This document shows positions 31,472-32,336 of a stretch of DNA of 38,162 nt, in pieces (the first letter of the stretch is position 1; the number at the start of each line of letters is the position of its first letter). The position numbers and the translations under genes are program-made. The notes under the pieces are model-generated. The model did no database searches. It saw only the letters and a list, made by a program, of their open reading frames with translations, and was not told where the DNA came from. Origin of the DNA: Actinomycetota bacterium (GTDB taxonomy: Bacteria; Actinomycetota; Acidimicrobiia; Spongiisociales; UBA5794); assembly GCA_013151445.1 (NCBI GenBank), contig JAADIG010000103.1:1-38162 (forward strand), written 5' to 3'.

Positions 31472-31498
31472 CCAACGTCCGATCGGTGGGGACGTTGG
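31472..31498. promoter_or_regulatory. 9-bp inverted repeat upstream of the membrane protein gene
   Basis: CCAACGTCC (31472-31480) and GGACGTTGG (31490-31498) are exact complements nine bases apart. The right arm touches TTGGGG, a possible -35 box, with TATATG (31519-31524) as a weak -10. It could be a second operator for the divergent xerC / membrane-protein region. Confidence 0.35.
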
Positions 31499-31549
31499 GG
31501 CTTAGGACCCTATCGCGGTATATGGCTCGGGCGGAGAATAGAGCTGACC

Positions 31550-31567
31550 TTGTGAAAACATTCACAA
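31550..31567 (+). promoter_or_regulatory. Rex-type redox operator
   Basis: TTGTGAA-AACA-TTCACAA matches the published Rex consensus TTGTGAA-N4-TTCACAA at all 14 fixed positions; the palindrome extends by C/G on each side (31549-31568). It ends seven bases before AAGGAG and 21 before the ATG of the membrane protein gene, a place where a bound repressor would block transcription. Rex releases DNA when NADH rises relative to NAD. Confidence 0.75.
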
Positions 31568-31588
31568 GCGGAATAAGGAGTGATTCAA

Positions 31589-32293
31589 ATGTTGCGAAGA
31601 CTCCGACTATTGGGGATCGCACTAATAGCGGTTGGTCTCGGATTCATTGTTGCAAGCGGCGTTGCCTACACCCGGATTCAGGCTGGGTACGACACACTGC
31701 AGGCGTTCAGCCAAGCACAAAACGTCACACTGAGTTACAACGAAGACGGCCAACTCATCGATCGCGGTACGACCGAAGGTGCGGATGCCATCATGGCGCT
31801 CCTCACCGATGACTGGGCTTACCCGGTCAAGATGGCCGACCTAGATCCGAACGATCCACTGGTGAATACGGCAAGCGAGTACATGTTCCAGATGGCGACT
31901 ATCGGGTACCACGTCCTCAACGGCACACAGACCGTCACACTTACCGAGGCGGCCGAGTACAAGGGTGAGACGTATCCCGCCGGAACGTACGAGTTCGAAG
32001 TTGACGGTCGCTACTGGACCGACTTCGATCGAAAGAATCCGATTGAAGGGCCCGCCCGAAGCCAGGCATGGAGTGGAACGGTCCATGGTTTGTTTGGTGA
32101 ACTCGGTGTCGGAGTGGTCACCCACTCGGTGCTCCAGATGGGTCTCGGCCTCGCGGGTATCCTCGCAGGACTGGGTCTTATCTTCGGACTCACCGGAGGT
32201 GGTCTCGTGTGGGTAGCCAAGTCGGATTCGTTCGACAGCCTCGCACAACGGCTCGTCGAGAACGATCCAGCACAACCCAAGGTAACGGTCTGA
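31589..32293 (+). CDS. membrane protein of unknown function, candidate Rex-regulated
   Basis: The 234-residue protein has one N-terminal membrane segment (about 7-26) and one C-terminal segment (about 182-207), with an extracytoplasmic domain of some 150 residues between them. That domain contains YPVKMADLDPNDPLVNTASEYM, YHVLNGTQTVTL and GRYWTDFDRKNP, followed by ARSQAWSGTVHGLFGELGVGVVTH at the membrane. No enzymatic motif or known domain was recognised. ATG 31589 is nine bases after AAGGAG; a GTG three codons earlier sits right against that site. A Rex palindrome precedes it and a strong terminator follows, so it is a single-gene unit that may respond to the redox state or oxygen supply. Confidence 0.85.
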   Translation: MLRRLRLLGIALIAVGLGFIVASGVAYTRIQAGYDTLQAFSQAQNVTLSYNEDGQLIDRGTTEGADAIMALLTDDWAYPVKMADLDPNDPLVNTASEYMFQMATIGYHVLNGTQTVTLTEAAEYKGETYPAGTYEFEVDGRYWTDFDRKNPIEGPARSQAWSGTVHGLFGELGVGVVTHSVLQMGLGLAGILAGLGLIFGLTGGGLVWVAKSDSFDSLAQRLVENDPAQPKVTV

Positions 32294-32307: not shown

Positions 32308-32336
32308 AGAGGCCCCTGCACCATGCAGGGGCCTCT
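32308..32336 (+). terminator. hairpin terminator of the membrane protein gene
   Basis: A perfect 13-bp stem (AGAGGCCCCTGCA and its complement) with a three-base loop lies 14 bases after the stop codon and is followed by ATTCGATAT, a weak T-rich end. Confidence 0.85.

Follow-up and report, generated by a model that had tools for sequence, protein, structure and literature searches.

The locus and its control region

The window, the whole stretch of 38,162 nucleotides that was analysed, carries a gene for a membrane protein preceded by two predicted regulatory sites. The features of this locus are the following.

31495..31512, reads on either strand: probable DevR/DosR/OsdR-type box TTGGGGCTTAGGACCCTA, 2 mismatches to TAGGGACNNNNGNCCCTA
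31550..31567, no strand: predicted Rex operator TTGTGAAAACATTCACAA, exact against the Rex consensus, kept at 42 of 64 loci
31575..31581, + strand: ribosome-binding site AAGGAGT, seen in the sequence before the ATG at 31589
31589..32293, + strand: gene for P0001, a membrane protein of 234 residues with two helices and the founder of a family not yet characterised (open reading frame, alignment, AlphaFold2)
31712..32092, + strand: encodes residues 42-168, the conserved alpha/beta domain, which is probably extracytoplasmic; mean column identity 64%
about 32308..32336, no strand: 13-bp inverted repeat 3' of the stop codon, a probable terminator between convergent genes (sequence and fold; no T-run)

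An earlier note on this DNA had claimed that the palindrome TTGTGAA-AACA-TTCACAA fits the Rex consensus at all fixed positions, 21 bases from the start codon. Both statements were borne out by our scan of the window, which gave 0 mismatches at 31550-31567 to TTGTGAANNNNTTCACAA, the consensus established for Rex of Streptomyces avermitilis (PMC5355995), and by the distance from the 3' end of the palindrome at 31567 to the ATG at 31589. TTGTGAAAACATTCACAA is the sole 0-mismatch match in the window, for which 0.81 matches are expected by chance at ≤3 mismatches. An alternative GTG start at 31580 is less likely, and a promoter scan recognised no sigma-70-like promoter at the locus.

The claim that the gene ends at its own terminator was borne out in part. 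A hairpin does follow the stop codon, but it lacks a T-run and the repeat at 32308-32336 was not reported by a scan for T-run terminators, so that a terminator is no more than plausible. Since a flavodoxin-like gene converges on the 234-residue gene from downstream, a two-way terminator is plausible. Comparison of the gene neighbourhood across 64 loci revealed no conserved neighbour, and the gene is therefore a free-standing one-gene unit with its own control region.

The membrane protein family

The two-span layout with a large domain that the earlier note had described is reproduced by the AlphaFold2 model (mean pLDDT 93.1), in which two long helices, residues 2-44 and 163-211, flank an alpha/beta domain. 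By the positive-inside rule, this domain most probably lies outside the membrane. Thirty-one columns are invariant in 51 family sequences and include His108 and the Met-x-Gln-Met and Tyr-Trp segments. The protein of the window has no cysteine and so can contain no CXXCH haem or Fe-S motif, which makes covalently bound haem c and Fe-S clusters unlikely.

The description of the protein as uncharacterised also stands. The sequence matched no Pfam or NCBIfam entry above any curated cut-off, the matches to TarH and DUF998 of Pfam being weak and below cut-off, and no relative was found in the PDB. Structural searches of the PDB and of viral structures, with the full-length model (pLDDT 93) and with the domain model (pLDDT 79), gave no match at E≤0.001 and Z values under 8 only; ATP-synthase gamma and P450 appeared as low-score helical matches. 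Plasmids, phages and PHROGs were searched for the family and yielded nothing. Long open frames in two relatives (L134 and L138) resembled fusions that might have indicated a function, and the extension in L134 proved spurious, since the gene there has its own ATG and ribosome-binding site.

The predicted Rex operator and its genomic company

Sixty-six relatives of the gene were found, mostly in metagenome-assembled genomes (MAGs) of Acidimicrobiia, and 64 loci, the window included, had enough upstream sequence for comparison. An operator was called at ≤1 mismatch to the operator or its TCGTGA variant within 120 bp upstream of the gene, and the expected count was taken from the rest of the same loci. 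By this definition the palindrome is kept before orthologues, as the earlier note had proposed to check, in 42 of the 64 loci against 0.17 expected. When the loci were aligned on the operator, the 70 flanking bases were nearly unconserved, so the conservation of the operator does not stem from recent common descent. The spacing from operator to ATG ranges from 17 to 77 bases.

The 22 loci in which the operator is absent come mostly from genomes in which rex was found. Three operator-bearing genomes gave no rex match (L018, L023 and L034), and all of them are MAGs. Three Demequina isolate genomes have neither rex nor the operator, and in an Ornithinimicrobium isolate, too, the gene has no Rex operator. 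An independent, phylum-wide draw of 396 genomes contained the family in 11; rex is present in all 11, as compared with 280 of the 396 overall (p 0.02), and several of the 11 show the operator.

The source genome (G000) has one rex gene, a PF06971 protein at C17:20548, which answers the question of its presence raised in the earlier note. Against the NCBIfam Rex equivalog, whose cut-off is 226, the product reaches 281 bits, and its DNA-binding domain and Rossmann domain are both retained. The palindrome overlaps the start of rex itself, an arrangement shared by the close relative G021. The 12-base core TTGTGA-N6-TCACAA occurs at 5 exact places in the 3.07 Mb of the source genome, and these together with one more site lie at the 234-residue gene, rex, the ATP-synthase operon, whiB, a principal-type sigma factor and a multihaem cytochrome c. 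The ATP-synthase operon is led by atpZ/atpI-like genes, with the AtpZ assignment (Pfam) coming from G021. In four relatives, near-exact 18-mers number 2-5 per genome against 0 for the reversed control, and they lie again at atp (atpZ/atpI-atpB), whiB, an rpoD-like sigma gene, rex and the 234-residue gene, and at Sec-type nosZ; the exception is L162 in G021, at an ABC-transporter-like gene. Of the nuo, cyd and atp promoters that the earlier note had proposed to search, the atp operon bears the palindrome; no near-exact site at nuo, cyd or ndh appears in the list for the source genome.

Rex of S. avermitilis binds and represses atpI, wblE and rex through the same consensus (PMC5355995). The Rex regulons of S. 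avermitilis and S. coelicolor share with the set described here the operator TTGTGAANNNNTTCACAA and, as targets, rex, the atpI operon and wblE/whiB; the present set differs by also including the uncharacterised membrane protein, the principal-type sigma factor and nosZ. We infer that Rex binds at the gene and regulates it. The suggestion of the earlier note that a Rex operator places this protein in the redox or respiration response is supported by the rex gene, by the conservation of the operator and by its further occurrence at cytochrome and sigma genes as well as at atp, whiB and rex.

Two other readings of the palindrome have to be considered. TTGTGAAAACATTCACAA also fits the Crp/GlxR core TGTGA-N6-TCACA, which the earlier note did not weigh; at least one Crp-type HTH protein is encoded in the source genome, and in Corynebacterium GlxR controls atp and respiratory genes. 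A site for a cyclic-nucleotide regulator is nevertheless quite unlikely. In the logo of the 42 operators, position 7 is A in 38 and position 12 is T in 32, with no preferred TA centre, a pattern that fits Rex TTGTGAANNNNTTCACAA and not Crp/GlxR; membership of a GlxR regulon (TA centre) or a Crp regulon (TC..GA in the spacer) was rejected since the core alone matches. In addition, one site overlaps the start of rex, and the three Demequina genomes without rex also lack the site. The assignment to Rex over Crp is thus consistent with the logo and with the company of genes. The palindrome could instead work at the RNA level, by forming a hairpin in the 5' leader, given its perfect stem 21 bases before the ATG and the other leader hairpins in several relatives. 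This appears very improbable, because the letters themselves are kept beyond what pairing would explain, the spacing to the ATG is variable, and the sequence turns up again at genes unrelated to this one; no Rfam match was obtained.

Several variations on the control region were seen among the relatives. Five loci (L044, L047, L051, L056 and L078) have a tandem pair of Rex-type operators before the gene. Ilumatobacter-like members (L031, L071, L073, L075, L077, L142 and L143) have the variant TCGTGA-N6-TCACGA, mainly at the 234-residue family gene, and the rex genes have their own degenerate site, so that no argument for co-evolution of operator and Rex can be drawn. TCGTGA..TCACGA is also the operator of hppA, a probe of which was bound by Rex (PMC5355995), and the Ilumatobacteraceae variant thus equals the hppA operator form of the Streptomyces Rex regulon. 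A group without the Rex operator (L026, L027, L040 and L060) has other inverted repeats in its place, for example GAGATCGATAAACACATATCGATCTC, possibly for another regulator or as an RNA hairpin. Inspection by eye of the leaders of L024, L033, L042, L044, L045, L049 and L050 indicated possible hairpins just ahead of the ribosome-binding site, with no conservation of their sequence.

Rex-type operators were also found at 1501-1518 just 5' of Sec-type nosZ, the gene for nitrous-oxide reductase, in the relatives G391 and G096 (L163 and L164), which suggests that Rex may control N2O reduction in Acidimicrobiia. Another lies between the principal-type sigma-70 gene and a divergent DUF255/YyaL-like gene (L149, at C135:26085 of the source genome, and L161 in G096), and is kept in two genera.

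A second element and the proposed dual control

Upstream of the operator, most relatives have the sequence TAGGGAC-N4-GNCCCTA, which was overlooked in the earlier note and is probably a DevR/OsdR-type box. It agrees with the consensus published for OsdR, AGGGCCGATCGGCCCT, and with individual OsdR sites, for example AGGGACCTTCGGCCCC (PMC5069765). The published OsdR core was found at ≤1 mismatch in 25 of the 64 loci (0.35 expected) and at ≤2 mismatches in 52 (5.7 expected); the scan with this core is the only independent one, as the 18-mer box pattern was derived from these same promoters. Operator and box occur together in 36 loci, the box 5' of the operator and most often 29-48 bp away, and at 16 loci the box (≤2 mismatches) is present without a Rex operator. 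The copy in the window is weak by itself, and it is conservation at the same place in relatives that argues for it as a candidate site.

The source genome encodes probable components of a DevR-type system. An exact box lies between divergent genes for a DevR-like regulator, whose best PDB match is Mycobacterium tuberculosis DevR (E 1e-65; the next is VraR, 9e-44), and for a DevS/DosT-like kinase, whose best matches are the GAF domains of DosT and DevS. A similar regulator is encoded in 27 of 27 genomes tested, with identities of 49-95% but of 40-43% in Demequina and G018. The boxes beside devR in the relatives are mostly weak. DevR/OsdR systems are likewise made up of such a regulator and a GAF kinase, and the hypoxia and dormancy regulons of M. 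tuberculosis DevR/DosR and S. coelicolor OsdR share the same AGGGACCTTCGGCCC-type box, which fits OsdR AGGGCCGATCGGCCCT (PMC5069765). In contrast to those regulons, the box is paired here with a Rex operator downstream, and a literature search of limited scope found no report of such a pair.

We propose, with a probability of roughly 0.75, that in Acidimicrobiia the gene belongs directly to the Rex regulon and probably to a DevR-type hypoxia regulon as well; Rex would block and the DevR-like regulator would recruit. When NADH is low, Rex on 31550-31567, just 3' of the presumed transcription start, would block transcription, and it would be released from the operator once oxygen is exhausted and NADH rises. 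At low oxygen the DevS/DosT-like kinase would activate the DevR-like regulator, which would bind 31495-31512 and recruit RNA polymerase from there, the centre of the box being about 55 bp 5' of that of the operator. Expression would then require low oxygen together with high NADH, and the product would be anchored via its two helices with the conserved domain outside the membrane. DevR boxes of M. tuberculosis lie near -42; by analogy, transcription would start near 31546 and the Rex operator would span about +4 to +21. The S. avermitilis cydA1 operator similarly lies just 3' of its transcription start.

The proposed scheme may be challenged on its second input and on the job of the protein. 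Rex alone might matter, with the upstream GGGAC box being a promoter or an unrelated conserved element: the window copy is imperfect, its GGCCCTA arm could belong to a promoter, and the motif at 2 mismatches shows no enrichment in the source genome (17-18 against 42-60 in the reversed control). We regard this as unlikely, in view of the OsdR core at ≤1 mismatch in far more loci than expected, the boxes kept where the Rex operator is missing, and the exact box flanked by the DevR-like regulator and DevS-like kinase genes. A closer contest concerns the protein, which, under the same regulation, could act in the cell envelope or in dormancy and have nothing to do with electron transport; we would put this at slightly below even odds. 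DevR regulons include many stress and dormancy genes (PMC5069765), and the product has no cysteine and its gene no conserved neighbours, but the other Rex targets in these genomes are mostly energy genes or global regulators.

Returning to the dual-control reading, the 234-residue protein probably contributes to the way in which these bacteria withstand oxygen exhaustion. It would be a guess, and one that we doubt, that it serves the respiratory membrane at low oxygen as an accessory or stabilising component. The wider proposal is tentative and on balance rather doubtful: an unrecognised membrane family under a two-input promoter (hypoxia through DevR and NADH through Rex, at roughly constant spacing) would, in Acidimicrobiia, be a new component either of the respiratory membrane at low oxygen or of dormancy. 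Members of this class are abundant in soils and seas, but few have been brought into culture and little is known of how they respond to oxygen. Because Rex and DevR-type sites are conserved across much of the class, the family is a strong candidate for a core role in the oxygen response, and dual control would join the Rex and DevR regulons, which are usually studied in different organisms. The DosR-induced Rv1733c-type proteins of mycobacteria likewise belong to a hypoxia regulon and span the membrane with two helices that carry an outer domain, although the likeness is one of layout only.

Sites of both types were also observed elsewhere in the source genome. At C127:167-201 a Rex operator directly adjoins a DevR-type box 5' of the multihaem cytochrome c gene (L005/L189). 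Of two further DevR-type boxes, one lies beside a COX1-like oxidase gene near rex (L170, C17:26982) and the other separates a cytochrome c gene from a Rieske-like gene (L171, C1:17953).
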